From Sipunculus nudus (Eukaryota > Annelida > Sipuncula > Golfingiida > Sipunculidae): a stretch of DNA of 64,000 nt. A program made the position numbers and the translations under genes. Position 1 is the stretch's first letter, and every line of letters starts with the position of its first letter. Under the pieces are notes generated by a model. The model was not told the origin of the DNA and did not search any database. It was given only the letters and a program-made list of their open reading frames with translations. Shown in pieces: positions 28,499 to 63,459 of the stretch. The DNA is taken from positions 18,474,001-18,538,000 of the forward strand of contig CM049308.1 of assembly GCA_026874595.1 (NCBI GenBank), read 5' to 3'.

Positions 28499-28577
<79 letters not shown>

Positions 28578-31500
28578 AACATGTTATCATAATTTGTTTA
28601 GTTCCAAAAACTAAGAGCACCATGAGTAAGGCAGTTGTTACAACCAGTGAACCTACCAGTGTATTTTAGGTCTCTCTGCTCTGATGTCCGTCACCCAGCT
28701 TGCAACATGCGGGTTTTAGTCTGTATGGAAAACAAAGTGAGGGTTTGATAAGGACAGAGGGATGCAAAACAAAAGTACTTGAAGAACATCATCCAGGCTG
28801 GGGTACCGGTATATCGGAAAGAGTTGTGATCTGAATGAATTAGCTGATTTTGGAGTGAATAAGGGTTTTTGTACAACCAGCTCCAAATCGCCAAATTATA
28901 ATAGGGTGTATACAATTTCATGACCAGTGCATACTGAATACAGCATTTACATTATGACCAAGGATATATACATATATATTTTTGTTCTATATTTTAGTGG
29001 CAGCTTAGGTAATCAACCAAACCAGTTTAACAACAGAGGTGGCGGTCCTCCGTCACTGATGTCACAACAATTCTCAAGACCTGGAAGCCAGGGAGGAAGA
29101 GGTATGAATTTTTATAACTATCATTAACCTTACTTAAAATCATGAATATTCATGATCATTGACTAAACAAGTTTGAAAGACAAGAGAGCGTCAGAGGTAT
29201 GAATATTTATAAATATGTTGAACCGTTATGTTCAAATTGTTGACTAACATTATTAATGATCATCAGCATACTGCCAATTCTGGCATAGTTCAAATAGTTC
29301 TTGGTAGATGGTGCTGCAAACACCCCTTCCTAAAAAATATAAAAATATTAGGGGGAAATATTTGAAATGACACCCCCCCCCTTAGGACACATTTTGCATT
29401 ACTCCTGTCAATTCAAGACCAAAAAGTGGTATTTCCAACGCTTGATCACAGAAGAGTTGTGTGACAAAGTACAGTGTTACCACAGTCAATTATCATATTG
29501 ATTATGAAAATATGACTTTTAACATGGAAGACAAGGTAGCTGTGGGAAAAGATTTATTAATATTAATAATGATAAATAAATTTATATCTTGTAAATGTAA
29601 GACATTCGTCAACAGATAGATGTTTCTCACGCACCCCCCACATCAAACATTTTTTATTCCCTAGGTGTCACGTGGTAATCTGGTGACCTGCTTGATCCCT
29701 ATGCTTAAAAAAGTTAAAACTCCTGCGTCGGTCAGTTTCCCTCTGACTGATACTTGGGCCATATTTACCAATGAGTATACTTCAAAATATGATAATTCCT
29801 CTAAAACTTTGACCAATTAGACCTGTACATCATTTATAATTATCTCATATTTCTGTCTTTATGGACTATTTTCTCTAACAGCTGCTATGCTCAGTTTCTA
29901 TATGTAAACTAATCATTGTAAAAATAATCACTTAGAAACTGTCTAATTTTTGTGTGAAAGAATTCAAATCTAAAATTTAGTCCCACAAGGAGAAACTGTT
30001 TGCATATTTTACTTTTATGATTCCTGACTGTTCAGTGAGATTAAACATAACTGCCATCACGGCCCATCGGCAAATATCGTGTTCCAAATGAACTTTCATT
30101 ATACTTCTTTTGCAATTAAATTTTAAATAAGAAATATCAACAATGGTTATATAAGAATTAGAGAAATTTCTATTGTGTTTCTTTATAAACGATCTCAGAT
30201 CTTGTTTTAACAACGCATGACCATAATGTATTTTGATTGGGAATCCCCCATGTCATGGCCATTGGTGGGGCTGCGTGTTTCAGTGCTAATAGTGACATTT
30301 TGACACCCAAAGTATAATATAATCTGCTTTGTATGTTAATATTACACATAAAAGAAATAAAAATTTCACATATTTCGAAATTCCTTTCAAACTTTTGACA
30401 AATTTGACCTATAAATGGTTTATTGTCTCATATTTTAATCATTACTTGTCATTTCTATGCCAGTGCCTGACAAATAATTTATGATATTTTACGCTATTTT
30501 CACAGTAAAAAAAAAAAATAAAAGCCACCCAGATCATTTTCTGAAAAAAGTGCCTGAGAAACAGTTTTTTGGAGCCTAATGTTTGGAGGCCAGTGTCTAC
30601 TGCCATCTAGTGGCAGGAATAGATACTACATCACACTGTCATAGTAGACATTATTCTGGTGCTGTTTGTATGGTGCATTGTAGCCTTATTCTGAAGCTAG
30701 TCAAATGGCTGTAGTGACTCATTTTCCATGCTTAAAATACGGAATGTAAGATTATAAACTTTTTGAGGGGGGTTCCTTAAACTGGAGGAGCTACAGGATC
30801 TGTATATGTGTATTTTCCGCTCATCTGGCCATAGCCCGCTCAGCTGATGCCATGGTGATATAGCACCTGCACTGTTCATCTGCCATCCACAGTTCTCAAA
30901 CCCTGCTTCAAGTTTATTTTTTGACCGTTTTTATTTTGTCTGTTTTATCAGATAGAACTCATTGAAACTGTTGCATAGAATTTAAAATTCATGAATTAAG
31001 CAGATTTATTTTAATTTGTTCCAAATCACAGAAAAAATGCTGCTTCTCCATTATTTTGATTTAGTTTATCTAATATTGATAAGATGCTGCCTTCTATATA
31101 GAATTTTTAACCTGCAGGTGGGGCATCCTGAGACACAAACAACTGCTGTAATGAAATATATATTACATGCACTTCAGTGAAAATTGTATATGTCACAGGA
31201 GCTCTGGATGAGCACAATGTCATTATGGGGGGAGACATAGTGTTTGGTATGTCTGCTGCAGTGCCCGTTGTCTTCATCTTGTTATTTCTTGTGATTAAGA
31301 CTCAACATTTCTATATGAAATTTCAAATTTAAATTGTTTCTAGCAAAATCTTGTACGAGTTTGAATACTGGTGACCTTGACCTTTACAATCATGGTCAAA
31401 TAGGCCCAAATAAAAATTTTCTGTGAACCCCATAACTTTAGAAGTATAGCATATTTTTTTCCTCAACTTTCAAACACAAATTGTTTCAAACATGTTCTTT

Positions 31501-34500
31501 GAAGAGTTTGAAAACTGGTGACATTGACATGGATCTTCAAGGCCAAATTATCAAGAATATAAATTATTTGTGAACACATAACTTTTGAACCACTCTGTAT
31601 ATTTTCATGAAATTTGAAATTTAAATTGTTTCTACCAATATATCAAGTTTGAGAATTGATGACCCTGACCTTCATCGTCAAAATCAAATAGGTCAAAATA
31701 GAATTTTTTTTAACCCAATCACTTTTTAAGTATTACATATTGTTTCCTCCAGAATATAAATTATTTGTGAACACATAACGTTTAAACCACTGTATATTTT
31801 CATGAAATTTGAAACACTCATTGTTTCAACCAAGTTCTTTGTAGAGTTAAAAAAAAAAAAAGTGTCCTTGACCTTTATCTTCAATATCACATCCACCAAA
31901 ATAGAAATTATTTGTGAATGCTGTGACACTTGAATTAGTCTGTAATTTTTCCCTCAAATTTGGGGATGGGAGGCCAATAGGTAGGGGAGACATATCATTC
32001 TATTTATATGTTCTGGTTTTATGAACTGCTGTGGGTGGGTGCTGACCTCTGGTGGGGAGATTTGGCTCTATTAGGGAATGCTGTCAAGGAAGTATTCATC
32101 ATACTTCAGAAATGATACATGTTTATATTTAATTTTTTTATCAGTTTAGCAGAGCTAACCCTTAAGAGCATGTGAATTTGTATAAGTGTTTCTTTATGCT
32201 GTATTTGCCAAACGTATATGTATACTATGACACCCTGCTGTGTCAAAATACACCAGTTTTTGCAGCATTAGACATGATACCTTACTGAAGAAGTTTCCTC
32301 ATAAGTAAAGTGCCAAAAACTGTTTTTTATTTATGATTATCATCTTACAGTTTGCTTCAGATATAATTCATTTATTCAATCCAATCAGTTCCAGATTACC
32401 TCACCTGAAAAGTCATTCAAATGATATAAAAGAAATAAGGGAATAGCATACATATGCCATATATTCATTCAATTGAAATTGTATTTTACAAAGGAGGCCT
32501 GCAAAATCACTCTTTTTAAAAGTTTTTTCTTTGAGGATTTCCAGAAAATGACACTAATTTCTCTATTTTCACTCTTTTTTCAGCAGCACTCTTTTTTTTT
32601 GGTGAAAGAATTCCGATATATACTATTTCTCTCCTGCTTTAATAGTGCAGTTATAGCAATAATGAGACAGTTCACAATTTGAAAATGCCCTAATCTTTAT
32701 CCGGAGGATTTACGCCAATTATGTTTCTGGATTTGGGAACGATATGCTTAAATATATGTATACACAACTGTGGTATGTGAAGCACATCTTTATTCATTTT
32801 GTGATAAAAAATTGGGAATAGCTGGTAATTTTACTATTTTTTCACTCCTTATTTCAAAGAAGTCTACTCTTTTTTTCTGGAACACTTACTCTTTTTTTGG
32901 TGATTTACCCTTGGCAGGCCTGCAAAGATTGAAACTTTGTTGGATTTTTTTTTTTAAAGTGAGCTTGACAAAAATTCAACCTTCATTAAGTTGTATATTA
33001 ATATATATGTAGTTGTATAGGAACCAGCTAAAGGGTATCTTACACTAGTAAATGTGAAGTAAAGGGAAGGAAATATCTTGTCCAAGCTTATATGTATTCA
33101 AATATTGGCAAACTTCTTTTTGTTGTACAAAACAGTTTTCATTCAATTCATCAAGTGTATTTGAAATCCTAAGTGAGACCTTAAAGTTACTCAGTCATCA
33201 TTATATGTAATGTTTTCCAATTTTATCAGTAATGTAAAAGTCAAATTAACAGTATTTGAATAGCTGCCAATTGAGTCCCCCGGAGAACTATACTAAGGGA
33301 AAATAGTCACCAAAACAAAGTAATTACCAAAATTATTATGTGTTTAATCCTTTTTACTTAACATGGAAAATCAAGGTAACAGTGGTTGATAAGTGAATAT
33401 TTATGTTCATGAATGAATACAGTTTAACAGTTTACAATTAAAAATATATGACCCAGAGTCCAGACATAAAGTTCCAAGGAACCTAAAAAATTTCCCTTTT
33501 TTTCATGACTTTGACGTCAGTTCTGCACAGCAGGGAGCGACTTTGACAGCATGTCTCCATTAAATATTCTGCCATAAGGAAGGATTTCTCTGAAGGAAAC
33601 ATTATCTAAATTTATTAAATGTACATAAAATGTTCCACATGTCCTGTTATGTGCTGAGTATGCATATACCATATATGAGTAACAAGTACAAGATATATAT
33701 GTTTTACCTATGCACTAAGTTAAGCAGGGATGCTGTTTTTGCTTGCTTTTCTGTGTGCATGTGTCTCAGTGAATGTGTATGTTTGTGTCGGTGTCTGTGT
33801 GTCCAAGTTTGTATTTATATGTGTGCGGCCTTGAATTTATTTGTTTTTATGTTTTTGGCCCAGTTTGTGTTTTTCTGTGTGCCCTGTTCGTGTGTGTCTG
33901 TTGTGTTTACGTGTGTGGGTCTATGTGTGTTCTTGTTTCTATCTGTTTTTCTGTATGTGCCCATATGTGTCTGCATTTGTTTGTGTGTGTTTTTTTCTAT
34001 GTCCATGTTTATGTCTGTGGTTGTTTCAGTAAAGAATTTAAAACATTGTATTAATGGAACTTGAAACATTGACTTGAAGTTTAAAAATTTAGAACAGGTT
34101 AACACGTGCATAAATCAACTGTTACTAGGCCTGTTTGTAACTATGTGTTATTACTGCCATGTATGAACTGCCCCATATAGTCATACAGTCAACGCAGTCA
34201 AACTGAAGCACAGTAAGACACAGAGACTGTTGTTCAGCTCTTAAATTAAATATACACAATTTTAAAATTAATGTTAGTTGTAGGGAAGTGATTAAGATAT
34301 TACACTTCAGAACTGAAGATCTTTGGTTTGGTCCGTGCCAGAGTGTCAAAAGCACAGTGATGAAATAACAATACAAAAATCAGAGAATCTGTATGTGTCA
34401 TAATGATTTAAAGATAAGTCTTACCTGTGCATATAATATCTTGAATATAGAAGGCTTTATTATTATACAGCATTTCTATCATGTGGTACCGTTCATCCTT

Positions 34501-37500
34501 ATTCAGCAGAGTGCGCCACCCATATGTCATGGGCTGTACCTTAGCACATTCACTACATTCATTCTTAACTAATGGCTTCTTAACTTATTGTTAGCCTTCC
34601 CACCAAGAAGTTGTACATATAAATGACACATGATCAGTTTATGTTTTTATAAAAAAAAACATACTTTTTCTGCATTGGTTTATTTTTTCACCCTGGAGTT
34701 ACAGCAAGATGAAATAAATTATGAATCGTCTGAATTTCTGATATTACCTATAGAATTATATCTAAAATATTTGCTTCAGAGGTAATATAACTACTTGATA
34801 TAATATATTTTTTTTTTAATTATAATTAAAAGCTGTACAGGAGTATTTGATTCAAATCAGATTGATATAATTGAGCCTATTGTATTTGTAAAGGAATACA
34901 GAGAGTTAATATTATTGGCCCAAAATGGGGAGGGGGAGGGTGTTAAGTGAGTCACAGCCCAGTTTGTGCTTCCACATAAAGCAGTGAGTTTTATCTCCGT
35001 GCCTCGGAGTGCAGGGAAACAAGGCTTTTTGTTATTAGGGATACTTATCTCACATAACTGTCCATCCCTTATGGCCCTTTTCCAGGCTGTATTTATCAAG
35101 ACCAGATGAGAAATAAATTTACAAGGAAGACCATGCATAGTTGCTCAGAGCATCGAGAGGGTATGTAAATTAATGACGGAGTCATTACCCAGATATTATG
35201 AGAGAGAGGCCGCTTGTGTTTGCCTAGTCCCGGTTGTAACACTGCAGGCATCTGTGCCTTTCTCACCGACATCGTCAAATCCATCTATGTTTATGGCTGA
35301 TTTGCAAACCAGCTTTAATCATTAGTTTTATTTGACGCTGTATGTGCACATAACCTCTGCTTGTTTCAGAGTAATACTTCAGCCCTCACGATTGTTTGTC
35401 ATTTGATCTCAGTTATGTAAAATATATGCACAGATTCTTGAATTTTTTCAAACATTTGGGTTTATAGCACATTAATAAACCTCCGCATGCTTGGAAGGCC
35501 AGTTTGTTTAGGTATTGGACTATGTTGAGTTGAAGGTCCCCTGTTCAGGCCACCCAAAAACCAAAGATTTAAAAAATATTTCCTAATAAAACAGATATTC
35601 TCTTCAAGGTCTCATCATGATTCTTCCTGGGTAGGTACATTGAAAATTGATATTACAAAGTTCTCAGCAAATGCATCCAAGCACATGGACCAACTATCTC
35701 AAATTCACCGGCTTTATACATTTTGGCTCCTTGAATTTGTAAGCACAGTCTTTTTATACGCCTGTCATATGACGGGAGTATTTTGGTATACCCACTGTCC
35801 GTCCGTTCGTCCATTAACTTTTAGTGTCGCTGGGATAACTAACCGGGCTTTGATGGACTTTCACCAAACTCACCATATAACTGCTTACCAACAGATTATC
35901 TTGCCCAAGTCCAATTATGGGCAAAATCCACGCATATTTAATAAGGTCACGTGTCACTAGGCTTCTTTGTGGTGTCCCCGCAATAACTTACGAAGAATAT
36001 GAAGGATTTGACTAAAACTCATCTGAAATGTTAACCAATAAAATATCTCACCTAATTGTGATTTCCAGCAAAATCCCTGCATATTTAATGAGGTCAGAGG
36101 TCACCACACTTTGGAGGCACCAATTGAATTAAACAAAAATCCTGTGGATTTTCATGAAACTTGTACATATTTACCAATAGTTTCTCACTTCAATTAAATT
36201 CCTCAGCAGATTTAACGCATATTTGATGAGGTCAGAGGTCACAAGACATAAGATGGGCGTATTATGCACATTTGCGGTGCTCTTGTTTATGTTTTGCATC
36301 ACTTGTCATGCAAGCTCATTTGCATTATTGTATAGGATTATGCAAATGATTTTGATAACGAAATATTGGCAGTTGCCAAGATATTTTCTGGAGGAAACCC
36401 TGTACCTCATGTTTAATAAACATACATGATTTGTGAATAGGTCCCTTTTTAAAGAACATACTCTTATCATGAGGTTACCAATATCCTGTTTATATGACAG
36501 CACCATCTACAGGCTGTGGGTCTGTTTAAAAAAATAAAATCAAATAAAACTACCGTACTGAGACTGAAAGATCATGTGTTACACTGAGCACACCTTATAT
36601 TGGGGTGGGGTGGGGGACATGTGCACTAGACGTTAGATTAGCCTCTTGTTTAAACAAATCTGGCAAGCTTCGTGCATAGACCTACCAGGTGCATAGAGTC
36701 ATAACTGTTAAATATAAAAACTTCCCAAAGTGTTTCAGCCAGATGAGAACACAAAATCAGGTACCAGAGTGTGAAAACATGTAGTTTGACAAGCCAGCGT
36801 GGCTGTCCTCGTAGTGGGGTCTCCGTTTAGGTTACCATATGTTACATATGTCAAGACTTGACGTTTGAGTGTGAATTGGCCACTGCTGACGATTCACGTT
36901 TGCGGTGTCTGTTGATGTGATCCTGTCCTTCAGCAAAAGGGGACTTCTATTTCGTACTGATCCGCTAAAGTGCCAATAGTCACATGCTTGAGGGATAAAT
37001 CACAACATATGTTTTTCACCCTAACGAACATATCTCCAGCTCTGCTGCACTTGCGACTTTGCCGGGAGGTTGGCTCGGGCTGTTAAATGGAGAGGTTCAT
37101 GATCGCAGTACAGATTGTCTACACATTAAAATCGTGTGCTTAAGATAAAGTCACATCAGCTCTCGACAGGACACTTTGGCTTTGCTTGAGTATTATTATA
37201 TCCCTGAGTAGATTGTTCTCTTGGATTAACTTCTCTTAATCTTCTCTTACATAGCTTCAGTTGGCTCATTATACTGGACAAATCATATCATATTACATAC
37301 TGCACCCAGTAGCTGTCTCTCAGTGTTTGTTCAGGCTAATGGTTAAATATTTAGAAGTCTTTGTTGTTGATTATTTTTCATTAACCATTTAAACTCACGT
37401 ACACACAGACAACAGTGTCTTAAAGTAGAAAAAAAAAACTGAAATTTAGTTCAGATGATAACAGACCTGTATTTAAAGAGATCTAGATATCCTGCTCATG

Positions 37501-37523
37501 TTTAATATGTTTTACAGAAATGC

Positions 37524-37573
<50 letters not shown>

Positions 37574-40500
37574 GTTAATTACAGACTCTTGAATTAAAAA
37601 AAATAGTATCTGTATTTTGTCATATGGAATTTAGAAAAAAAATCAAATTATTTTTTTATTCATTTATGCGCTTTTAAAGTTTTTAAAAAAATGTGAAATG
37701 ATTTGGTTTTACCAGTTAATTGTAAATAAAGGTAAGAAACATGCAAGATGCATTCTGTGCAATTTTTTTTTTAAGGAAATGTTTCTTTGTATGCTTGTCA
37801 ATAAGACTTATAAAAGAAAATAATCATAATTATCAGATATTCCGAATTAATAATGCCTTAAGATTATTGAAATTTTATCTTCAAAATAATATTATGTATA
37901 ATTATGTATATCATAATTTCAACGTATAGAATATTGAAATTTATATTGTAATTATTTTATAATAATGTCATAATGATGATTAAAAATCTTACACTTATTA
38001 TAAATATTGTATTTTGCACCAGAAGAATAAAGTCAATTAGTTTTAATGTATCAAAAGACAGCATATTTATCAACAGTATTTAAACAACCTCTCTGAATAT
38101 GAAGTAGAACTTAGAAACACAAAGCCAGCAAGAACCAGCAAGTTCACTCACAACGTTTGTTGAAGAGTCAGAGAATAAATGAATTATCTGCAAAAAAGTG
38201 TTGACAAGGTCGTGTAATTGCACTTTGGTCAACAGTGATTGGGTATGGTTGCTACCCATGGGGAACATTTTCGTCAGTAGAAGAGGGTATCGGTACCAGT
38301 AAGTGTTCTCCGTCTGCGACCGGTTGGTTAGACAAACAGCACCTGGAACATGAAGAGAGTGTTAATCAGCGCGGGTTGCTAGTCTCTTGTCAGTTTAGAT
38401 GTTCCCGCTGTCTTCAGCCTCACCTCTCCGTCTCGTGAGTGTCCGACGGGGCAGGGAGGGGGGCCCGTGTGTTGGCCGCTGCTACAATTCCGGTGACGTC
38501 AAGTGTGTTTGTGCCCCCCTACCAAAGCGCAGATGGTTTCATTGAAAACTGACCTCACAACCCCATTAGTTCTTAAACAATTACGAGTGGTTTCTCCAAT
38601 TTTGCTAGGGTGACACTAGTGCAAATGTTGACTGTATCTTTGATGGTCTGTTAAATTCAAGTTTTGCCGACTTTGCCTAGGTGTATAGGGAGGGATATTG
38701 GTGGGATACAACTCACAATAAATATCACTATCTGTTGTCAGATTCAGAAGATGTTCAGTGTATAGCTCAATATTTCAAAATTTGCCAGGAAAAAATTTAC
38801 ATGGTATGTAAATATTAATTAAGCTTTTAATATATCATATTCATAAAGAATCTTATATATTTTTCATTGAAATGGGTTTATAATTGCAGACATACAGATT
38901 ATTCATACATTTAGAAGATATCACACTTTTTTTCTGACAGCAACAAAAAATAAGAGAGAAATAACAGAACACAAAGAGAACATTAATGCAATACCCATAT
39001 ATGGATATCCCTCAGTATAAATACAGTGAAATAAAAAAAATATGGATTTGGTATGATATTGGTACACAGTACAACCAGATTCCAGCACTGTAGATGTCAC
39101 ACATTTTATCAGCAAAAGTAACCTTTATATGTGCTCAAAATTATGAACTGTTTATTTTTTTTTAAATATAATAAACTTCTTATAGTTTATTAGAGCAAAT
39201 CTGCATAAATTTTGTGCAAAGTAAGGGTCAAGTATATGCTATTTGCTAAAATAGGGTTGAACCATGTAGAAAATAACAAGAGATATAAAATAATTTCTTT
39301 TACTTTTTTGAGGTGCAGAATTTTGAGATTTTGACTTGTATCTCTTTAGGATGAGATACAGCTGGTAACAGCTTATGAATTTAATCAAATTGGAGGACTT
39401 TTGGATGTATGTGGGAAAAAGATTAGAACTGGAGCTTTCTGTGGTTGTTCAAATGGGATCTGCAAATGAGAGGATCGATGGATCAATCAGAATTAAAGAT
39501 GGAAAGTGTGAAAGTTCATTAAATCTGTGAACAAGCTACTAGAAGGAGACAGAAATCTCCCCCAGTGTGGAGCAGGAAGGAGGGTTGTTTGCTTGAGAAA
39601 ATAAGGCAGGGCAGGCCATTGTGAGATGTGCCAGTCTCTCAGTAGCTAAATTGATTACTCGCTGGTTCAGATGCTACAGATAGCAACAAATTAACGTTGC
39701 TAAGAAGTCCCAAATCAAATGTAGCCCATCTCCGACATCCTCAGACCTGTCAGTCAACGAGATGGTGAAACATTTCATCAATGATCCTGAACCCAGATTC
39801 CTACTTTCAGGTCGCGTTATCTGGTCAGACCTGCTAATGAAGGCCTTTTAATTAAGCGGCAGATTGCCATGGACAATAACAAGGTATTATTAGTGAGTAT
39901 TAGTGTGAAGAGGAATGTTCACTCACCTTAAGCTCAGAGTTTACACCTGAGGTGTGATTTGTTAGTTTTCCAGCTTTTACACTTAAAACTCTTCTAAGCA
40001 GATCAACACTAATGGTCCCTAAATAAGATTACATCACCGGGATATTTAAGAGTAAGAGTACCAGAATTTTGATGAGGAACTCTCTTTGTTGATCTATTGG
40101 TCAGAACTGAGCCCTTGTGAATAGCGGCCCCACCTGGAGCACAATTGATACTTTCTGGTTTTTACAGGTGTTCTCTGCTCTGGAGGCAATACTTGGAATT
40201 AGTTAGGTAACCACACTAGGGATTAGCTTGGATAAGGGGTTTGGAGAATTTCAATGACATGTGATGGAATTTAATAGGTTTAAAAAGTAAATTCAATGTT
40301 TTAATCCATCTTTGATAAGACAAATGTAATCCAAAATATCATCAGGAAGTGAAGGTGTTTTTTTTTTACAGAAAATTCATTGATTCCCTTTCAAAAGTGA
40401 ATTTTATTGGTGATCATTTCCAGTTATTTTGTGAAACCATGATGAGACAGAAGTTAAACCTAAAAGGTTTATTTTTATCTGAATCAAAATTTCAGTCAGC

Positions 40501-43500: not shown

Positions 43501-46500
43501 CAGCTTTTAAAGACTATCTCTTGACAATTTATTATAATTTTATGATATGTTGTTACAGGTAACATAACATTTTTTTTTCTTTAATTTTCATGATGCCATG
43601 GTATTTTTCTATCCTAAGGTTTTCTGGTCATTCTATGAATGTTGAGACTTTTCTGAAGAAAAACATTTCTGGTTAGAATTATTCTTGAAGATTTATAAGT
43701 GTTCATGTTAAGATTTTGTAGGATGAAACCATCTTGGCAGACCTTAGATTATGACTCGGGTGTTATTTAATATTTCATAATTAAACATTACCTGAAAATG
43801 GTTAATGTTTCATAAATGTTCATTTCAACATACACAAAATATATAGATTTAATATGTAAATTAAAGAGAGTTCAACATGTAATTACTGACAGTGAATATG
43901 ATAGCCTAAAGGAGTGTAAATTCCTTTCTGCTTTAGACATTAATAAAGTACACATCTACCAGTCTATTTGATAAATGCCTCTACGCAGGTGTCCAGGCAC
44001 TTCTGAAGTAGTGAAGCGAGGGGACCAGTAAGGTTGCGGGGTGAGGTAAAACAGGAAAATCAACAGAGGATGGCTGACACGTTTGTTTAGTAGTTGACCT
44101 GCCCCTTTGTTTCATGCTGCGTTATCACTGCCTTTCATATGGCTCAGTGTAGCTTGTATTTTCATACAGAGGTCGCGTCGCTACCCTCCACCCAAACCCA
44201 CTCCCCACGACAACATTTGTCACTTATGTGTGATCTAATTCTAATCATGGTCACCGTAAATCTCACTTTTTACGGCTCCTGACACATTAAACAGAAGCAT
44301 GGTGGACGGTGTGTCTTTAAAACCTGTCGCACCATATCACTGGACCTCTTTCCTGTATGTTTTTGGTATGCGGCAGGCCAGAGGGTTGCGGTTGAAGCCC
44401 CATCATCTGTTATTGATATACTTGCTGTCATAAATTTCAACCTTCGTTTGATGTTAGGTGTTATTTTACAGAAGACCTTTTTGCCCCTGGTGTGGTTTAC
44501 CTGCACTTTGCATGCTAATCATGGAAACAAATTACAACGAACTCATTGTGACCTATAATAGGGACACTTATATTTGTTTAATGTTTACATTTTGTTTCTA
44601 AAGTCACTGTGTGCTTGGAACTATCTCCAGTATCAGATCTTGTTAGAACAATGAAACTGTCATTATCACATCCAGGTTTGGTCTAAACTATGATCTTTAG
44701 GTAATTTTCTGAATTCTGTATTTAGTTTAAAGGTGTTAAATTTAGCCACAAAATTCTGAAGTTATTAAATTGCAGGGCTGCACTGGTCTTTGTACAGATA
44801 TAACGAATCTTGTGACAGGATAGTGCTTAAAAAAACACAGAAGTTTCTTGACAGTTACTAAAAAAAATAATGAATAATATATTAATTGTTACATTCTTTT
44901 CTTCTTCCTCATTCAGTACTCAATTATGGAGAGTAATTTGATTAATCTTTAATGTAAACTTGTTCAGAGAGAAGTTTTGATTTTGACGCATCACCCTGAG
45001 TAACCAGCCCATTACAATGTACAGAAATATGTATACATGTATGTCCTTATTCTTCACTGTACACAACTTTTCACAGAAATCAGTGTCCATTAATTATAAA
45101 AGATTCATTTATATATGATAAGGTGTTAATAAAGAGATTAACATGGATAATAGGGGTCATCTAGCAAAATTATGGGCTGAATAAAAATTAAACAAAAAAA
45201 TTAACCAGATGATTGTTATCGGCAAACAATTACTCCCCCCCCCCCCCCCCCCCCCCCCCACAGCTGAGTGATTTTGGGGGATCAGTTATGGATTGTGACT
45301 TTGGAAATTTGTTCAAGGTCAGAAATAAATATAAGGTGCAAATCTGTCACCTATGATTAAAACTGAGCAGAAATGATTTTGAAAATCAGCCATATTTCAG
45401 ATTTAGCCCCAACACGGCCAAAAGAAAAGAAAAAAAAGAAGAAAAAAAATTGTATTTGATGGTTTTCCACTCTGGTTACCCACAATAATATTCTGACCCA
45501 TATATGAAAATAGAAATAAACTCATCCACCCCTATAAGTCTCTCTTCCTGCAAGAGGGGTTTAATTAAGTTACAAAGACATATCATTATGGATACACAAG
45601 AAGCAAAGTTTAAAGTGTTTCAACTGAAAAAAATATGCAGATATGTGTGATGTAAATCTGTTCTAAAATTCAAAACATTTATAACTTGTTAGGTGACTAC
45701 TAGATTCACCAGCAGTCACAGTTGCTCAGACATGACTAACATGGCAAGTACTAAACATAATGTAGTGTACAAAGAAGAGGTGTAATCTTTAGATCACCAT
45801 AACCTAACTGTAAAAGTGAGTGCATATATCCTTGCCTGATCGGAGGCAAGAATGTACATTTCATGTACGGATCTAATACTTCCTGTCTACGACACACAAT
45901 TTTGGATTGCCAGGAGATGGTATCGTAGGAAACACTTATGTCGGCCATGATTAATTTCCTGTTGGGCTGGGCATTTTATCGACACCTATCAGTATATGAA
46001 TGAAGGCAGGTGCTCGAAGCTCCAAGTGACCGAGTCGTTTACAGGGACAGATGGCTTTGCATCCAGGACTAAACAGAGGCTGGCGATTTAATATTTAGCG
46101 GTAGACATGCTTAGGTTGTACTGTAGACGCTATACTGTTAATCCTGTTGTGATACATGGAATTATAAGATCAATTTTGGTATAACATACAGTATGATAGA
46201 CATTGTATCAAACTCACTGAGTTAAATACCCCTCTTATGTCATAATAAGCCATGGTTACTGCAACATTTGATTAAATCATCACCAAATGGTTTGCTTGTG
46301 TTGAACCATGGGTCTGTTGTCAGTTTTACTGTATTGAATATGCCTTGTCCATTAAAAATAACTGCATTTCTGAAATGTTAAATATTTTTTTAGATGTTAC
46401 ATGTAATACTCAGAAAAAGGTTCACTAGCCATCACTTATCAGTTATTAGTAAAGTACACTAGGCAGTGTTTGTCACTAGTAGTGGTAGGTTCAGTGGATA

Positions 46501-49500
46501 GTACCTGTCAGTGGTAAGTTCACTAGGCTGTGGGCCTGTCAGTAGTAGTCAGTGGTAGGTTCGGTAGGCTAGTAGCCTACTAGACTGTGCCTGTCAGTGG
46601 TAGTCAGTGGTAGGTTCATTGGGCTGTGCTTGTCAGTAGTAGTCAGTGGTAGGTTCATTGGGCTGTGCTTGTCAGTAGTAGCCAGTGGTATGTTCACTAG
46701 ACAGTGTCTGTCAGTGGTAGGTTCACCAGGCTGTGCCTGTCAGTATTAGTTAGTGGTAGGTTCACTAGGCTATGCCTGTCAGTAGTAGTCAGTGGTATGT
46801 TACTAGACAGTGCCTGTCAGTAGTAGGTTCACCAGGCTGTGCCTGTCAGTGGTAGTCAGTGGTAGGTTCACTAGACTATGTCTACTAGGCTGTGCCTGTC
46901 AGTAGTAGTCAGTGGTAGGTTCTCTAGGCTGTGCCTGTCAGTAGTAGTCAGTTGTAGGTTCTCTAGGCTGTGCCTGTCAGTAGTCGTCAGTGGTAGGTTT
47001 TTTAGGCTGTGCCTGTCAGTAGTAGTCAGTGGTAGGTTCTCTAGGCTGTGCCTGTCAGTAGTAGTCAGTGGTAGGTTCATTGGGATGTGCTTGTCAGTAG
47101 TAGTCAGTGGTAGGTTCTCTAGGCTATGCCTGTCAGTAGTAGTCACTGGTAGGTTCTCTAGGCTGTGCCTGTCAGTAGTAGTCAGTGGTAGGTTCTCTGG
47201 GCTGTGCCTGTCAGTAGTAGTCAGTGTTAGGTTCTCTAGGCTGTGCCTGTCAGTAGTAGTCAGTGGTAGGTTCATTGGGCTGTGCTTGTCAGTGGTAGGT
47301 TCTCTAGGCTATGCCTGTCAGTAGTAGTCAGTGGTAGGTTCTCTAGGCTGTGCCTGTCAGTAGTAGTCAGTGGTAGGTTCATTGGGCTGTGCTTGTCAGT
47401 AGTAGTCAGTGGTAGGTTCTCTAGGCTATGCCTGTCAGTAGTAGTCAGTGGTAGGTTCTCTAGGCTGTGCCTGTCAGTAGTAGTCAGTGGTAGGTTTTCT
47501 AGGCTGTGCCTGTCAGTAGTAGTCAGTGGTAGGTTCATTGGGCTGTGCCTGTCAGTAGTAGTCAGTGGTAGGTTCTCTAGGCTGTGCCTGTCAGTAGTAG
47601 TCAGTGGTAGGTTCTCTAGGCTGTGCCTGTCAGTAGTAGTCAGTGGTAGGTTCATTGGGCTGTGCCTGTCAGTAGTAGTCAGTGGTAGGTTCTCTAGGCT
47701 GTGCCTGTCAGTAGTAGTCAGTGGTAGGTTCATTGGGCTGTGCTTGTCAGTAGTAGTCAGTGGTAGGTTCTCTAGGCTATGCCTGTCAGTAGTAGTCAGT
47801 GGTAGGTTCTCTAGGCTGTGCCTGTCAGTAGTAGTCAGTGGTAGGTTCTCTAGGCTGTGCCTGTCAGTAGTAGTCAGTGGTAGGTTCATTGGGCTGTGCC
47901 TGTCAGTAGTAGTCAGTGGTAGGTTCTCTAGGCTGTGCCTGTCAGTAGTAGTCAGTGGTAGGTTCTCTAGGCTGTGCCTGTCAGTAGTAGTCAGTGGTAG
48001 GTTCATTGGGCTGTGCCTGTCAGTAGTAGTCAGTGGTATGTTCTCTAGGCTATGCCTGTCAGTAGTAGTCAGTGGAATGTTACTAGACAGTGCCTGTCAG
48101 TAGTAGGTTCACCAGGCTGTGCCTGTCAGTGGTAGTCAGTGGTAGGTTCACTAGAATATGTCTACTAGGCTTTGCCTGTCAGTAGTAGTCAGTGGTAGGT
48201 TCTCTAGGCTGTGCCTGTCAGTAGTAGTCAGTGGTAGGTTCTCTAGGCTGTGCCTGTCAGTAGTAGTCAGTGGTAGGTTCTCTAGGCTGTGCCTGTCAGT
48301 AGTAGTCAGTGGTAGGTTCATTGGGCTGTGCCTGTCAGTAGTAGTCAGTTGTAGGTTCACCAGGCGGTGCCTCTCAGAAGTGGTCACTGGTAGGTTCACC
48401 AGACTGTGCCCGCCAGTAGTGGTCAGTGGTAGGTTCACTAGGCTGTGCCTGACAGTTATAGTCATAGGTAAGTTCACTAGGCTGTGCCTGTCAGTTGTGG
48501 TCAGTTTATGGCAGTTGTAGGTTCACTAGGATGTGCCTGTCAGTTATAGTTTGTAGTAGGTTCACTAGGATGTGCCTGTCTGTAGTAGTCAGAAATAGGT
48601 TCACTAGGCTGTGCTTGTCAGTAGTAGTGCCTTAAGTTCCTAGGGTTGCCTGCCTGTATAAGTTTTATGGTTATCTTTGAATATTATGAAAAACTGGAAT
48701 GAGTTGAAATTTAAGAATAATTTTTTAATAGTTTGAATTTATAATAAAAAAAATTTGTGTATTATACTTTTGACTTGTAAATGAATAGTTGTGAATGAAT
48801 CTAGTGACAATGGTAATATAATATTTACTGTCCTTGAGCCACCTGTCACGTTAATCCTTAGACACAATAGATCAAGTATTCATTCATGAAGGTCAAATTG
48901 CCCCCACTGAACTGTCCACACCACAGATATGCCATGTACCTCTGTGCTGTTTATTCAGAAGCCTTACTATGGTGATCAAATAATTGCCACCAGCTCTCAA
49001 AGAAGGCTCATAGTTACTCACCCTGTTATATTATATCCATTGTATTCAAATATCCATAATTTTAAATCCAAGTGTATGACTGACACTTGACACTGTCCGC
49101 TCCCATTTTAGGTTGTGCTGACCAAGCAGAATAGCAGTACTGACAGAAATAAACAAGCGACAGCAATCATAGGTTCCCGTTTAGTGGCAGCATGTTTGTG
49201 TTGAAGAACATTCACATTCTAATATAAGTGGCTGTATGTAACATGGGATTGTGAATGGCAAGAAGGTTTGCTTGCTATAGTTTACGCTAAGGACCCTTGT
49301 TCACCCCACCCCCCTGACACTGGGTACACACAGTATTAGAGACACCCGTGGGCTATGGGACATTTACTGCTTGTCCTTGCACACAATGCTGTGTTTGCGA
49401 GCCCAATACTGGAAATATTTACTTTTCAGATAGAGACCCTGCAAAGCACAATATCAGCGTTTTGGCCTGTTATATATCAATAGACAGTTATGTCGCAAGC

Positions 49501-52500
49501 AAGCATGTGGAATTCCTCATTGCTTTGATTGACAGGTCTAATCACTGTCGGAGACATGCATCCCAGCCTTGTATTGCTGTTACAATGGCGCCATCTGGTG
49601 TCAGGTACCAAGAAGTACAAGTAGATTTTTTTTCTACATCCGTGAAATAGATCAATGTTTTTCTATCTCAGATTTGTAAACAGTTGTAGAACCAACATAA
49701 GAACCAACATATGGTCAACATAAGAAATGTTGACACACAGGAAGGTGCTGCTGCTACATCGCTTGATAATGATAATGGTGATGATGGCGATGTTTATGAT
49801 GATCACATTAATAAAAGTAGTCAGGTCTAATATGGTCTTTTATTTCATTTCACATTTTCTTATCTCTGCCCTCTGTTTATATGTGTATATAAGTGTATAT
49901 ATTTGTATGTATATATAATGTTTCTATACATATATATATATATATGCAATGTAAAATGTGTCCATTGCTAAAGAAATACTTACTTGTCATGTGAAGGCAT
50001 TAAATATTAAGACGCTTTCACTTTCAGCTAAATGGAATATATACAAGTGTCAACTCAGATTATATATGGCATGATTCATACATATTCCTTATCATAATTT
50101 ATTTTTTTAATTTTATTTTGACCAATTCAGCAGATGTTTTCTGCCAAAGTACATAGATGTTTTGAAGAAGACTTAAGTTCTCTATACATTAATTTCTTTA
50201 TTTCACTGGTGGTTGATATTTCTCATTGAGCTTGTCTTGTTCTTCCCAGTGTTTACAGATAGTCTATCATGTTAACAGATGGTTTATCATGTTTACAGAT
50301 GGTTTATCAGATGCTCTTTCAGTTTTCTTTTGAAAAATCTAGCAGGAGTCTATTGTGAAACTTCACAGTATCCACAAGCATACTCCCGAGTACTACAAGA
50401 ATACTTGGATGACTAAAGCATGCTCAGAGAGGTCTATACTGGAATGAGTAGCCCCCTTGAATGTCGTATAAACCTGAGAACGACTTCCCCCGCAGCCTCT
50501 ACCCCAGCAGCAGAGTCAAGGGCACTCCTGTTTACCCTGTCGCACACTGACGACTTTAGAGACCACTCACAACTAGTAGACAGGCCATCTGATAGCCCGA
50601 GTGCTTTTTCTGCCGATATACTCTCCCTTGGTGTGAAATGCAATAACTGCTCCACCTGAGCAGTATTAATTGGTTAATCTCTCTCTTTAGGGCTTTCTGA
50701 GGGCTGTTCCAATAAAAAGGTACTTCTCTCTTTGGTCTCCTGAAGAGATGGCGCAGATCGACAAGCGTTTACGGGATCAATGGTGTCAAACCAAAGCGTG
50801 ATTTTTACGGTGGATAAACCCAGGCAGATTAGAGTTGGGTTTCTAACCATCAATATCACCGCTAATTGGTTGACATGATAAGCGCAAAATATTTTGCACA
50901 GAATTGAATCCAAGCCATTACCCTCAATGTAACCATTCGTGTGAATAGGCCAAATGGTAACATTTTATTGGGTAATTTGACACCCTGCAGATTTCTTCCG
51001 CAGCTCATGAAAAAAAGCTTGCGTTGCAGTAAAGCCAAAATGATTGAAGCTCCAATCCATATAACCGCAATACAAACAGCCAAAGGGGCAGTGGCAGTTC
51101 CTGGCAGTTTCTCATAAATGCAGTTTCTTCCAAGTCAGCAATGAGAATTCAAAGACAAATTGATACTATTAACAGATTAGCATGTGGGTTTTTACGGAGT
51201 GGCTACAGACAGTCTGTCTAGTGGTGATTTATCGCAAAATCAGAGTTTGTGATATCAGATTTGGAATCAAGTAAGATCACACACTGGTTCAAACAGTGCT
51301 TTACTGTAGAAATGAAATTTATATCATGTCAGACCTTCTTGCTGTTTAGATCCCCATCTTCTTCTCAGTGTTAAATTTGGTTAAAAAATATGCATTGACA
51401 CAAATCCTGTGTATATCATACACTCATTATATTTTTTTTTACGCAGCAGTAATACAGTGCAGTTGTTCCAGATCTCCTTCGCTTGGGCTGGCACAGTGCC
51501 AAACATTGTAATCAGACCAATGAGAACTTTGTATCGCAATGTGCATCAGACCAATGAGAGCAGGGTGTCATGGGATTGAAACTTTTACAGTAAAAAAATC
51601 CAAGCCTGCTTGGAGTTGGATGCACTATGAGATACCACACTATGATTTGTCTTTTTAAAGTTCTTTGCCCTGTGCCAGCCCTGGTGGTGAAACCTGGAAA
51701 ATCTTGCTATACAAAGCAGCAGTTAAAGCGAAGGAGATGAAGAATGACTACGGTTTATAATCGCTGCATGAGAAGTGTGTGTGTGTCATAAGTCCCTATG
51801 TATACATTTAAATGTTAATTAGCACCCTTCATCATTCTGTAAGATGACTGACCTACAATGCGATGTCATTATGCTCCTTCATATCATGTTGTGAATGACA
51901 TGTTATAGATGGCTGTATGATCTCATCTCATCACCACTATAGTCAATCATTGCTGTTCATCCTATTGGTATCTGCATTTGAATTTACATGAACATTCAAT
52001 CAGTTGAAGATGTTCACACTCTACTTCTGACCTATCTGACACATTTCATTATTAACCATATCACTGTTTTCAAGGTATCACAGAGAATCAACTTGAAACA
52101 ATAAACATGCTATTGCTTCAAACAGGAATACAATCAAGAATTTACACATTTAATTTAAGTCCCTTTTTCAGTATGGTATTTACTTAATATTTATGTTATA
52201 AGAAGGCACTTACTTGTAAATAAGTGAAATTAACCTCTGATATAAAATTTATAACAGCATGAGAAAGAAGCTTGCTTATAATGGGAAGACCAAACATGGC
52301 GAGTTTACAAGCTTTGGAACAGAGTCCTGCCATTTCCTCCAAGATGTTCATCTGCAGCAGAAAATGGTTATCCATGATTTCATTGGCCAAATAACCCGAT
52401 TGCCATGGCAACCTGTAAAAAGTATACTGTGGTTGGCTTTATATTAGCGAGGCTGAAATTTCATTTTCGGGATTGCACCAGAACCTCCAAAATCTAAGTG

Positions 52501-55500
52501 CAGCAGGGTCTTAGTTGACGGGGCATCTTATTCCTGAGGGTTTCATATTTGCGATTATTTCACATTTGCGTATATTGCAATATTAAAACTCTTGTGAATA
52601 AAAAGGCAACTACATTAACTCCTCAGTGGTGGTGTCATTTTTTTATGGATGGAATTATATAAAATCCATGTACAGAAAATTATATAATGTATTATAACAT
52701 CAAATATTTTTAAAGTTAACAGGTTAAAAAGTTGTGTTTATTTTGTTTCAGATTCCTACGGTCAGCAGGGAAGACAGGGGAACCAGGGTTCATACAATCA
52801 AGGCAACAGGTAGGAATCTCATGCGACGTACTATTATATGTATATATTGGGTGACAAAATTGTCTTGAGTCAGTTAGTTAAATATCATAAAACATAATTT
52901 CCATTTTTGCCAAAAAAAAGACAATGAATGACACATGGTATATTACCAAAAACAATTGAAATTCCTCCTCATTTGCTGTTTTTTTTTGCAATTTCAACTG
53001 AAGTACACCTGTTTATTTTGGTGTTCACAAGATTAAAAGGCACAACCTACAGCATCATTAGTGCCCTCTGGTGGTGGCTCCTGTGTATAACTTGAATACA
53101 CAAAACTTTCATAGTTTAAAATAATTCATTAATCTCGCAAAATCTAATATGTCCAAAAATGTGTTTTTGATAAGTAGGTGTAGTCTTTTGGGATTTTATT
53201 ACTGTTACTTTAATGAAATAGTTTATAATAATTTATTCAGTATTTCTACCAATGTAAGAATAAAACAAAGTGAATTCTAAGTTAAAGTAGCAGTAGGTCA
53301 ACCGCTGTCAATATATGAACAAGTTTCCTGCCAACTTTTGTGATATCATGATAAGTCTATTATGTCAAGAACATTGCAGATGTGAAAGATCAGCTTTAAA
53401 CTTTCATTTTAGTCTGTCAGTTAAGTATCTATGTAATTTTCTAAAATCAAATCTCCTATATGAAATTCATAAGAATTATATATAGGTGAAATTTCTTTTT
53501 CTTCAAAATTTATTTATAATCAATTGATATAAAAAGACAAGTGTTTCATGTATATAAATCAATACATTACTTATGGTCACTGGAAATAAAAAAATAATGT
53601 TTCAGAAAAAGTATTTCAGCTTTAAACTGTTTATTGTGGTCATTAACATGTCTAAATGATGCATATAAAAGGGTGTTAATTGAAAAGTTATATTTATATG
53701 ATCTCTGCAAATCAGAACATGTTTAAACATAAATTACTGCACTACAGAAAATACCTTTCCAATGCTAGGTCCATGATGCCTGAATTAGGAGTTCCGTCTC
53801 TAATGTTTTCAAGGCCAGATGTTTGTCAATGGCAAGTTTTGGTACCTCTAAGAAAATATTGTTGTGACTTTTGCAGTATAACATCAAGTGCATGCATGAT
53901 CAAGTACTAACACATTAATCTTGGAGTGAACCACTCATTATTAATATTAAGAGAAAAATGTGGCCATTTCAATTGTCCAAATAATTTGTGTATTTTTTGG
54001 TTACCTTTGTTGTTTTTACTGCAAGTTTGCAATTTTGGTTTTGTATACTTAAGGATTAATTTCAGACATATTTTACAGTTATTTTGACAGGTGTTTTGAA
54101 CTAACTTTTAAAGTCCATTATAAATGAGTTAACAATGCAGTATTTGAAGATACAGAATTTAAGATCCATTTAAATTTTGTTTCTTTTTGACTCAAACTAT
54201 CTCATCAGATAAGATAAGCAGTAATTTGGGATAATTCTCATATAATATTCTTTTTCCTGATATGGTAATTCTCAAATTGAATTCTAAAGAGAAGGTGAGA
54301 AAGGTCAGACTTGATATGTTCAGTTTTTCATACCTTATTAAGAAATTTATTATTTGTTACCATTTGAGCAAGTTAAAACTTAAACAGTGTATTTCAAATA
54401 ACTGTAATACTTCTGAATCAAATGTGAATACAGGTCAGCATTAGTGGATGATGAAAAAAATGTGACAGTAGATGATAAAAATAATATATATATCAAAAGT
54501 TGTATTGTAGATGTCTGAGTAACTATTATAGAAAATAGCTCAGAAAATTTATAAAATACATTAAAATGTTTCAGCAGTTGCTGTAGAAATCAAACTAATA
54601 AGCAGTTGCTAGGTAATTGACTAATTGTTCCGCAAAAAGACAATCATCAGTTACTGTGGAGATGATAAAAGAAGCAGATACTGTAAAGTGGCCACTGGGC
54701 ATTATGTCAGTAATATTAAATTTTGGTTTTAAATTAAAATTTCAGGAACCAAGGTAGTTATGGAGGACAGATGGGGTGGCAGCGCAACCTACAGGGACAA
54801 CAGAGTGCTCACCAACAGAATCAGCAGCGAGGCTACCAACAGGATCGCTATGGAAACAACAGAAGTGACAGAGGTTATGGGTCACAGCAGTCGACCTACG
54901 GAGGTCAGGTAGAGAGTTACTCCACCAGCAGCAGGAGTGGGTCCAGTAACTGGTCAAGGTCAGGGGACCAAGGTTATCAGGTAAGCAGTGAAAATGGGAA
55001 AAAAATTTATAAGATAGGCCAGTGGCTTGCTGGTACTTATTAAGCCTTCTTGATTTCAGACACTTTCTTGTTATACACCGCTATATCTCATCCGCTGTTA
55101 CCGCTCTTTCGTGTAGCAAGTTTCTCAGGGTTTTACCACCAGGGCTGGCACAAGGCCAAGAATTGTAATCAGACCAGTGAGAGCGTTGTATTGCCTTGTG
55201 CATCCAACCAGTTAGAGTGGTTAACGCTGGTTTGAAACTTTGAACTGGTTTCAAACCAGTGACACCATGCAATACCCTGCTCTCATCAGTCCTATTACAA
55301 TTCTTGGCTCTGTGCCAGCTTTGGTGCAGAAACTCAGAAAAACATGCTATACAAAGCAGCGGTTAAAGCAAAGGAGATTGGAACAAACACTGTGTGTGTA
55401 AGGAGCGTAGATTTCAGGTTTAGCATTTAGATAGATAGGAATAATCCTGAAGTCATACCCTATAATAACACATTACATTGAATCTCAGAGGTTCTGTTGA

Positions 55501-61180: not shown

Positions 61181-63459
61181 TTAAATTATTTTACTCTTTG
61201 AAATTATAAGCTTAAAATCTTTGAAAATAATTTTTATATGTTTTTATCAAGAACTTGAAGGTGCTTGAAGGTAGCTTATTTAAAAAAGGTCTTTGAAAAA
61301 AAACCTTGAAATTAACATTAATGGCTGGCCAGTGGCCATAGCAGAAAAGACGAGCAGGGCATGCTTTAAACCTGTTACAAGAGATTTCCTTTTTTGTATA
61401 GACTTGTGTATGAAAATGGTCAATAAAGAAAACTGTAAGAGGGGCGGAACGTAAAAGAGTTGCCCAAAGGAGTCTGTGGAGGGAAAACTATTGGAAAACC
61501 CAAGCTGATCCTTGAAACGACGTTGAAATTGAACTTTTGAATTGAAATTAAACAACATCCAAGTTTATGGATGTTGATACTCTTGGTACACTCTTGGATG
61601 TAAATTCTTTTTTTTTTAATTCACATCTGAAAAATACCTTGGAGATGTCACAAACATAAAAACTTATAGGAAATTGTTCACAAAATGAAATGATTCAAGA
61701 AGTAACATTTTTTAACATTTAAAAGTAATAAAATTTATATGAAACATTATCTTAACAGATGCTGATTTCTTGAATGGCACATATCAGAATGTGTGGATAT
61801 GCCTATATATTGTATATTAATATAATATAAATTGTTTATATTTTCCTTGGATTATGGATAGGATGGTGCAGAGCTGTAAATTTGCAATGAGGATGGCGTG
61901 TGAAAGAGTAGATTATTTTTTCCGAAATATATAGATAGCCTTTAAACTAAAATATTTTCAGCCATGGTTAATACTTGTTTCTTTATAATACTGAGTTTCT
62001 TGTCCCGTCATCAGAAAGGCAATGTCTTGTCTCATATAAATTTTGAAATGTCATGAACTACAATATTTGTGACTGATATATTTTGTATAGGTTGCTTTGG
62101 GACTATGTTGGGAAATGCTCCTGGCATTCTGCCTCAGCAGGCCATCAGGTGTGTCTAATGGTATCAGACAATGTTCCATGAATATTCATAATAAATATTA
62201 TATGCAGGATAATTCATCATGAAGAATAATTGTTTATCATATGCACAGTAGAACTTTGTTTCTCTGAACGACAACTGGCACAATAGCTTGGTCCTGTTAA
62301 TCTTTGAATCAGAATATTTGACCAGTATTGTGAAGAAAAGTGGACATTCTGGTTATGAAAAACCGCTTGCTGAAGAAACGGAGGAATAGGGTTTCCATTT
62401 TAGTGATTCATTTGACCTTATTATCAAAGTTTAAATGTAGAATATTACATGAAGAATAATTATGTAATATGAACCTGCAGTTTTTCAAATTACTAACAAT
62501 AAACGGTGTTGAAGAAACATTTATAGACGTTTATTGTAGGCAATTAAAATGGAAATTATACCGTGAAACATGTTGAGTTTATTGGTATACTGGTATTTGT
62601 CTATATAAATATAAGAAAAACTCCCAAAGTCTAGCTCTAGATAAGTCAGTATTTTATTCTTATCCATATATTTGTTTTGCATTGTTGTTATTGACAGTAA
62701 GTGTTTTTATAAACCATAACTTATACAGTAATATTTAAAAAAATTCACTGGAACCTGTGTAAGCACAGATATAAGGGTCAGGTATGTTCTGCTTTTGATG
62801 AAAGAGTTTGCATAAAAGAGTTTTTTTTCAGAAATTTTATTTTCTGTATAAATAAGTTGTTTCTTTCTATTGAAGGAAATAACAGAGGGGACCAGTTGTG
62901 TATGAAAAGACTTTGCAGGTAGCGATTTTGTAGGTAGACCTAAAAACTGTTTTACTTACCCCGAAAAGCAGTAAAAGCAAATATAATCTCATGACATATG
63001 TAGGTATACATTTTAAATCAGGCTCTTAAAGTTTGTTGGCAGGTTTTCACATAATACTTTTGAATTGTATATAAATATATGTATGTATACATTTGTCGAC
63101 GTCATGTGGATGCATGCACTTGTACAAACAGGGGCATATACGGAATCACTAAAGTATTAGAAAAAGAATAGAAAAATAGATTAAAAGTGTTTTTAACAAT
63201 GAACATTGAAAGAAAAAAGTTGTAATAAAAAATGTGTATATAATTACGTGTTTGTCTCTTTCTGTATACCGTAGTGAATAAAAGTAGTTTTTAAGTTAAA
63301 AGTAAATAAGTTCGTAATGCGGAGACGTGCACGGGCACGCTTATTTTAATATATTTGATGCGCTTTTATTATTTCTTTGATCTATAAAGGAAAAGAAATG
63401 TAACTGAAAGGTTTTGATCTTTGAAGACTTCGTCCTTAAATTGAAGAATGCCAAACAGT
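61181..63459. other. intergenic DNA downstream of XRN2
   Basis: AT-rich. Open frames up to 92 codons (minus strand 61280-61558) are unrecognised. No repeat family identified with confidence. Confidence 0.5.
61422..61427 (+). promoter_or_regulatory. polyadenylation signal, alternative distal
   Basis: AATAAA about 400 bases after the stop. A further match lies at 61727-61732. Either could extend the UTR; AATAAA is common by chance in AT-rich DNA. Confidence 0.35.

Follow-up and report, generated by a model that had tools for sequence, protein, structure and literature searches.

Two non-transcription-factor genes of the pharyngeal cluster, slc25A21 and mipol1, have introns presumed to carry elements that serve pax1/9 and foxA. 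In the wnt7-atxn10 pair, regulatory elements are held by the introns of atxn10 (PMC8851819). As for xrn2, nkx2.1 adjoins it in all six spiralian genomes surveyed, it is associated with pharyngeal genes in every deuterostome surveyed, usually lying upstream of and adjacent to nkx2.1, and in two corals it sits beside nkx2 (PMC11175523). In human, a deletion covers KIZ, XRN2, NKX2-4, NKX2-2 and PAX1 together, and the FOXA2 control elements named in the same report lie far from XRN2 (PMC11220097). The xrn2-nkx2 linkage is thereby reported from corals to vertebrates, and PMC11175523, as far as its available text goes, gives no reason for it. On the accessible parts of these two reports (PMC11175523, PMC11220097), the first-pass annotation's placing of XRN2 beside NKX2-type genes is well founded, from the literature and not from the window, by which we mean the whole 64-kb stretch of DNA analysed here. 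On the basis of the xrn2-nkx2.1 adjacency in other animals (PMC11175523), an nkx2.1-type neighbour is expected at this locus.

The XRN2 gene and its oversized 3' intron

The gene that spans nearly the entire window on the + strand is XRN2: 14 PDB sequences were matched, the best one (E 1.7e-44) belonging to a homologue of 5'-3' exoribonuclease 2, the exon at 22598-22759 matches Pfam XRN_M (E 1.1e-22), and tblastn with an XRN2 query found the exons in order. One XRN2 exon, compared with collections of prokaryotic and viral contigs, brought up no confirmed relative, a result without bearing on animals. The 5' exons precede the window start, and the stop codon lies at 61022-61024, 2,976 bp before the window end. 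One exon or more is missing from the gene model between 23254 and 26617, where a peptide lies at 24361-24432, and the 3.4-kb intron modelled there is therefore an upper bound. As a 5'-3' exoribonuclease, XRN2 has a function unrelated to development, one mark of a bystander gene in a genomic regulatory block.

An intron far larger than the others had been noted in the low-complexity tail, and this was borne out: at 23,650 bp it is four times the size of the next largest among the 21 modelled introns (runners-up of about 5.9, 4.4 and 3.7 kb). Its splice sites are good (donor GAG/gtatga, acceptor attttgtttcag/ATTC), the phase is 1 on either side and the intron is real. The reading frame runs into a stop codon soon after 29101, and retention of the intron would yield a short alternative C-terminus.

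About 4.4 kb (19%) of the intron is masked repeat, with contributions from a minisatellite of 2.2 kb, a fold-back element and a repeat that also occurs at 7.8-8.3 kb. This share favours ordinary intron growth by transposable elements and satellites, in which case the GC islands of the intron (Table 1) would be old or partial transposon copies and XRN2 would have no regulatory role for a neighbour. Outside masked repeats lie 19,228 of the 23,650 bp (about 81%), such that the listed repeats alone do not explain the size of the intron.

A nested protein gene was rejected: three of the longer intron ORFs (35529-35957, 42483-42797 and 49318-49647) gave no match above cut-off in a Pfam scan that left out others, including 33594-34064 and the minisatellite ORFs. 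Intronic RNA genes were also rejected, the only matches in the intron being three sub-threshold ones on AT-repeat sequence (mir-297 on TA-rich repeats); neither an Rfam family at gathering score nor a tRNA gene was found in the window. A B-box-like pattern indicative of tRNA-derived SINEs occurred no more often than by chance (5 matches versus a mean of 3.4 in shuffles). The islands might instead serve XRN2 itself or intronic transcripts, as the gene's own enhancers, as alternative or last exons or as intronic non-coding RNAs. Such elements are possible in any large intron, the islands are gene-internal and the alternative C-terminus would fit this explanation, but the Pfam and Rfam results and the lack of tRNAs argue against it. 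XRN2 is moreover expected to be broadly expressed, and broad expression needs few distal enhancers; we consider a role of the islands for XRN2 itself or for intronic transcripts improbable.

Compositional islands in the giant intron

The composition of the intron is uneven, with a between-window GC standard deviation of 0.056 versus 0.024 expected from sampling alone, and 10 GC islands are present in it (GC >= 0.42 in windows of 400 bp after masking of exons and known repeats). The first-pass annotation had placed eight islands, seven of which fall in such stretches; the remaining one, at 52240, does not (500-bp GC 0.35). A clear island (Table 1) and two weaker ones (30511-30920 and 40531-40980) had gone unlisted. 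The excess of GC islands over the upstream introns is weak (10 versus 5, P 0.11 for density). The repeat and exon masks of the GC and CpG profiles derive from TRF, exon, self-match and splice-site listings, with eight short TRF rows (11169, 11790, 15018, 41153, 41675, 49688, 52541 and 60908) left unmasked and the transposon at 9161-10372 additionally masked in the GC-island profile. Windows were dropped when fewer than 300 of 400 bp were unmasked (GC islands) or when more than 60 of 300 bp were masked (CpG patches), and the island and patch thresholds were picked after the profiles were seen.

Complexity of 5-mers reaches at least the 75th percentile of the intron in eight of the 10 islands, island 40531-40980 being of low complexity (19th percentile). 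Several properties of the islands speak against an origin as transposon copies: five of them are at the 94th percentile of complexity or higher; the eight listed in Table 1 match no other part of the window; and, at the settings used and with the stretch 46501-48649 left out, no island is flanked by inverted repeats of >= 18 bp. The description of the islands as repeat-free stands for the most part, an exception being a 20-bp tandem repeat at 50250-50309 inside one of them. On the other hand, repeats that occur once in the window are invisible from the window alone, and young elements elsewhere in XRN2, namely a DNA transposon near 9145-10376 whose ends are inverted and a repeat zone at 4.1-6.5 kb, share the GC/CpG signature of the islands.

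Table 1. Positions of XRN2, its giant intron and the sequence features in and beyond it.
Feature	Position	Strand	Details	Evidence
XRN2 gene	1448..61024	+	first exon in the window (near residue 234 of human XRN2) up to the stop codon	tblastn with XRN2 query, PDB search, Pfam XRN_M, splice-site listing
Giant intron	29102..52751	+	phase 1, within Gly/Gln/Arg-rich C-terminal tail; 23,650 bp	donor, acceptor, frame on both sides
GC island	34851..35400	.	first placed at 34900; CpG o/e 0.42	GC windows
GC island	36491..37290	.	first placed at 36780; CpG-retaining core 36776-37175	GC windows, CpG patches
GC island	38031..38830	.	first placed at 38080; CpG-retaining core 38151-38650	GC windows, CpG patches
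GC island	39361..40000	.	first placed at 39400; CpG-poor, o/e 0.30	GC windows
GC island	43851..44580	.	first placed at 43985; CpG-retaining core 44076-44450	GC windows, CpG patches
GC island	45681..46160	.	newly listed, clear; CpG-retaining core 45801-46150	GC windows, CpG patches
GC island	48961..49700	.	first placed at 49090; CpG o/e 0.35	GC windows
GC island	50141..51150	.	first placed at 50370; CpG-retaining core 50726-51050; holds the 20-bp tandem repeat	GC windows, CpG patches, TRF
39-bp minisatellite array with degenerate edges	46418..48658	.	intron filler; TRF row 46579-48628, 52.7 copies	TRF, self-match
Fold-back repeat (MITE-like), dispersed	51485..51778	.	between two islands; copies at 12817-13117 and 55085-55378	self-match, inverted-repeat search
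CpG-normal stretch	63026..64000	.	o/e 1.07; 3' of XRN2 end, runs off window; candidate edge of a neighbour's unmethylated domain	CpG profiles

CpG retention and motif content

The islands have a higher CpG content than the remainder of the giant intron (CpG o/e 0.44 versus 0.26), which is what unmethylated elements would show. With the CpG background rate for patch calling fixed by hand at 0.25, there are five CpG patches in the giant intron and four in the upstream introns, the latter with higher CpG o/e and two of them sitting in the DNA transposon. The islands of the first-pass annotation overlap four of five CpG patches, at P 0.012 with unmatched and P 0.29 with GC-matched controls, and their link to CpG is gone once they are compared with GC-matched stretches. 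Molluscs and annelids are described as having mosaic methylation, under which the CpG-depleted body of XRN2 (CpG o/e 0.29-0.34) is as expected for a methylated, steadily expressed gene (PMC11292947). According to the available part of that report, demethylated regions are less strongly linked to open chromatin in annelids than in deuterostomes, and the majority of intronic demethylated regions in annelids carry transposable elements (PMC11292947). Past the 3' end of XRN2, CpG content climbs to normal from about 63.1 kb.

The islands had also been described as rich in homeodomain cores, a claim that did not hold. TAAT counts centred on the island positions first placed averaged 5.25, 8.50 and 13.12 at half-widths of 150, 250 and 400, versus 5.23, 8.68 and 13.80 for the intron. 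When 500-bp islands beginning at these positions were compared with stretches of matched GC content from this intron, TAAT occurred 50 versus 42.8 times (P 0.17), TAATTR 5 versus 7.6, AAGTG 14 versus 14.9 and TRTTTRY 13 versus 12.6 times. None of the 10 motifs in the coordinate-centred comparison and none of the 11 in the GC-matched one was in excess in the islands at P 0.05, homeodomain (TAAT), NK2-, FOX-, SOX- and GATA-type motifs being at the background level of the intron. This lack of motif excess is a further point in favour of intron growth by transposable elements and satellites, an explanation that we regard as possible, if on the doubtful side. Three TGTTTAC sites cluster near 50250-50530; they were spotted post hoc, are partly the tandem repeat itself and are not counted as evidence.

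XRN2 as a possible host of elements for a neighbouring gene

A search of the 64-kb window for homeobox, paired and forkhead domains by tblastn found none, the matches being at chance level (best E 0.12). With NK2 homeodomain queries, even the best match in the window was not credible (E 0.12, with an internal stop), and a scan of the window for WFQN-type motifs gave zero matches. The reading that we prefer, at a little under even odds (roughly 0.45), is that XRN2 is a bystander gene whose intron islands are candidate cis-regulatory elements acting on an nkx2.1-type gene beyond the window. Points in its favour are the size of the intron and the small share of it that listed repeats explain, the GC islands with their complexity and CpG content inside a CpG-depleted gene body, the CpG rise past the 3' end, the adjacency in other animals and the wnt7-atxn10 parallel. 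Points against it are the lack of a homeobox gene in the window and of any motif excess, the CpG overlap that is not unusual under GC matching, the CpG patches of upstream introns, the weak excess of GC islands, the annelid data on demethylated regions and the distance of the human FOXA2 elements from XRN2. The oversized 3' intron would host several such elements in the form of the CpG-retaining islands, with candidates near 36.8-37.2, 38.15-38.65, 44.1-44.45, 45.8-46.15 and 50.7-51.05 kb. Their target would be an nkx2.1-type gene just outside the window, probably past 64000, to which the islands, as enhancers, might loop across the last two XRN2 introns.

A broader proposal is that the giant 3' intron has hosted enhancers of nkx2.1 since ancient times and that this, not chance, explains the xrn2-nkx2 linkage from corals to vertebrates: the two genes would have stayed together because moving either would cut regulation. 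We consider this extension unlikely. Should the islands be repeat remnants only, the intron is an ordinary large one. With a concrete list of candidate elements from one XRN2 intron, the bystander explanation would become open to direct tests in spiralians.

Like XRN2, slc25A21 and mipol1 are general neighbour genes with introns as presumed hosts of elements, and unlike it they belong to another gene pair. The wnt7/atxn10 regulatory block (PMC8851819) differs in that at the XRN2 locus the neighbour and the elements are putative; the likeness is that XRN2, too, is a general-function gene with large introns, and many animals are reported to have it beside a gene for a developmental transcription factor. 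As to the xrn2-nkx2 microsyntenic block of the pharyngeal gene cluster, an nkx2.1 neighbour would lie out of range of the window here, and the main text of the report, in its available form, is without the terms 'intron', 'regulatory element' and 'bystander' and does not make the enhancer-host reading of xrn2, but the gene is the same in both cases, XRN2 (PMC11175523).

Extent of XRN2 and its giant intron

XRN2-matching exons start at ~1447 and follow in order on the forward strand as far as the stop codon (61022-61024). A joined three-exon fragment matched 14 PDB sequences, all of them 5'-3' exoribonucleases by name or members of the XRN family, with a 5'-3' exoribonuclease 2 homologue as the top match (E 1.7e-44), and exon 22598-22759 matched Pfam XRN_M (E 1.1e-22). 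The earliest residue matched corresponds to about residue 234 of human XRN2, which places the 5' exons outside the window, ahead of its start.

The outsized intron claimed by the first-pass annotation was borne out: it spans 23,650 bp versus about 5.9 kb for the next largest (then about 4.4 and 3.7 kb) among 21 introns in a model that lacks at least one exon within 23254-26617 (peptide at 24361-24432). The donor (gtatga) directly follows exon end 29101 and attttgtttcag precedes exon start 52752; both junctions are phase 1, and splicing restores the Gly/Gln/Arg-rich reading frame. Masked repeats, chiefly a minisatellite, occupy about 4.4 kb, and 81% of the giant intron is therefore unrepeated within the window. 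Ordinary intron growth may account for such an intron, a plausible reading that we rate somewhat below the bystander reading.

Several repeats of the locus deserve description. Because its unit is a multiple of three, the minisatellite stays open over long stretches of either strand (frames of up to 277 aa); it is almost certainly non-coding. The giant-intron copy of the diverged repeat is immediately preceded by a gtccgtccgttcgtcc stretch. Another XRN2 intron holds a near-perfect (99%) 273-bp tandem duplication (25887-26423), whose identity implies that it is recent or an assembly artefact.

Features of the XRN2 locus, in window coordinates
Feature	Position	Strand	Description
Giant XRN2 intron	29102-52751	+	23,650 bp; defined by splice sites and frame
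Additional GC island	45681-46160		clearest island absent from the first-pass list
39-bp minisatellite	46418-48658		2.2 kb, about 53 copies; chief masked repeat of the giant intron
Fold-back (MITE-like) element	12817-13117, 51485-51778, 55085-55378		roughly 300 bp, 3 copies
Diverged repeat	7812-8296, 35885-36250		about 154-bp unit, gaggtcagaggtcac; common to two introns
DNA transposon	about 9145-10376		CpG-rich; inverted ends cagtggaacccc, subterminal ggtggtcg repeats
CpG-normal stretch	63026-64000		past XRN2 3' end, runs off window; last 300 bp GC 0.49

Composition and motif content of the islands

Scanning 400-bp windows for GC >= 0.42, with known repeats and exons masked, yielded 10 GC islands in the giant intron, 5 in the XRN2 introns upstream of it, 3 in the last two introns and 1 in the 3' flank (5.2, 2.35, 4.56 and 3.36 per 10 kb, respectively). 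Relative to the upstream introns, the giant intron shows a weak excess (P 0.11). Of the five upstream islands, two sit within the 4.1-6.6 kb repeat zone, two include exon sequence (11941-12500, 24051-24460) and the fifth overlaps a tandem array near 16.3 kb. Seven of the eight island coordinates originally listed lie inside the 10 GC islands, although 52240 falls outside. By 5-mer complexity, 8/10 islands reach at least the 75th percentile of the intron; the other two stand at the 72nd and the 19th. Both the outsized intron and its compositional islands are real.

The islands had also been described as rich in homeodomain cores, and here we found no excess over intron background or GC-matched stretches. 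Across the three widths used, no motif out of ten rose above intron background at P 0.05, SOX-type ACAAWG being if anything rarer, and none of eleven exceeded GC-matched stretches of the giant intron in the eight listed islands or in five CpG-retaining patches, AAGTG in the patches coming closest (14 versus 9.5, P 0.13). The specific evidence offered for enhancers does not hold. At 50250-50309, adjoining a CpG-retaining island, a 20-bp tandem triplet (tgtttacagatggtttatca) combines Fox-, E-box- and GATA-like cores, which may be chance.

CpG is depleted throughout the XRN2 gene body (o/e 0.34 upstream of the giant intron, 0.29 within it and 0.29 beyond), which is what a methylated gene under steady transcription should show in animals whose methylation is mosaic (PMC11292947). 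Pooled islands have a CpG o/e of 0.44 versus 0.26 for the remaining giant intron. A separate patch test found CpG-retaining patches in the giant intron (5), upstream (4) and the 3' flank (1), and none in the last two introns. The listed islands touch four of the five giant-intron patches, above random placement (P 0.012) but not above GC-matched placement (P 0.29). Upstream patches show a CpG o/e of 0.68-1.02 versus 0.70-0.77 in the giant intron, and two of the four lie inside the DNA transposon, so CpG retention alone cannot separate enhancers from transposons here. This transposon is apparently TA-flanked, and its ends may resemble those of pogo/Tigger elements. Nothing in this evidence tells enhancers from old repeats as the identity of the islands; that they are XRN2's own elements we consider unlikely.

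XRN2 as a possible bystander host

A search of the window, which extends 2,976 bp past the stop codon, turned up no homeodomain, paired or forkhead domain. CpG is normal from about 63.1 kb on, a rise consistent with either a neighbouring domain free of methylation or a further young repeat. In the human genome NKX2-4 presumably lies past the XRN2 3' end, and on this sole ground an nkx2.1-type neighbour would be expected past 64000. That XRN2 hosts, as a bystander, candidate enhancers of an nkx2.1-type neighbour in these islands has, in our estimate, a probability of roughly 0.45.

Among titles and abstract openings, most subscription papers being outside coverage, we recognised no description of enhancers within introns of xrn2; in PMC11175523 the terms 'intron', 'regulatory element' and 'bystander' occur nowhere in the main text. 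The bystander-gene concept itself is already established, as excerpts of PMC8851819 and PMC2688929 indicate. XRN2 is the gene where such a role is most to be expected, and, judging from the literature, an nkx2.1-type neighbour is likely here. Human XRN2 is grouped with NKX2-4, NKX2-2 and PAX1 (PMC11220097), and protostomes show partial pharyngeal-gene linkages (PMC7978419). The passages of PMC11175523 on this linkage report no such block in the two sponges examined, xrn2 together with nkx2 in two corals, part or all of the linkage missing in other cnidarians, association of xrn2 with pharyngeal genes in all deuterostomes analysed, usually adjacent to nkx2.1, and xrn2 adjoining nkx2.1 in 6/6 spiralian genomes analysed.
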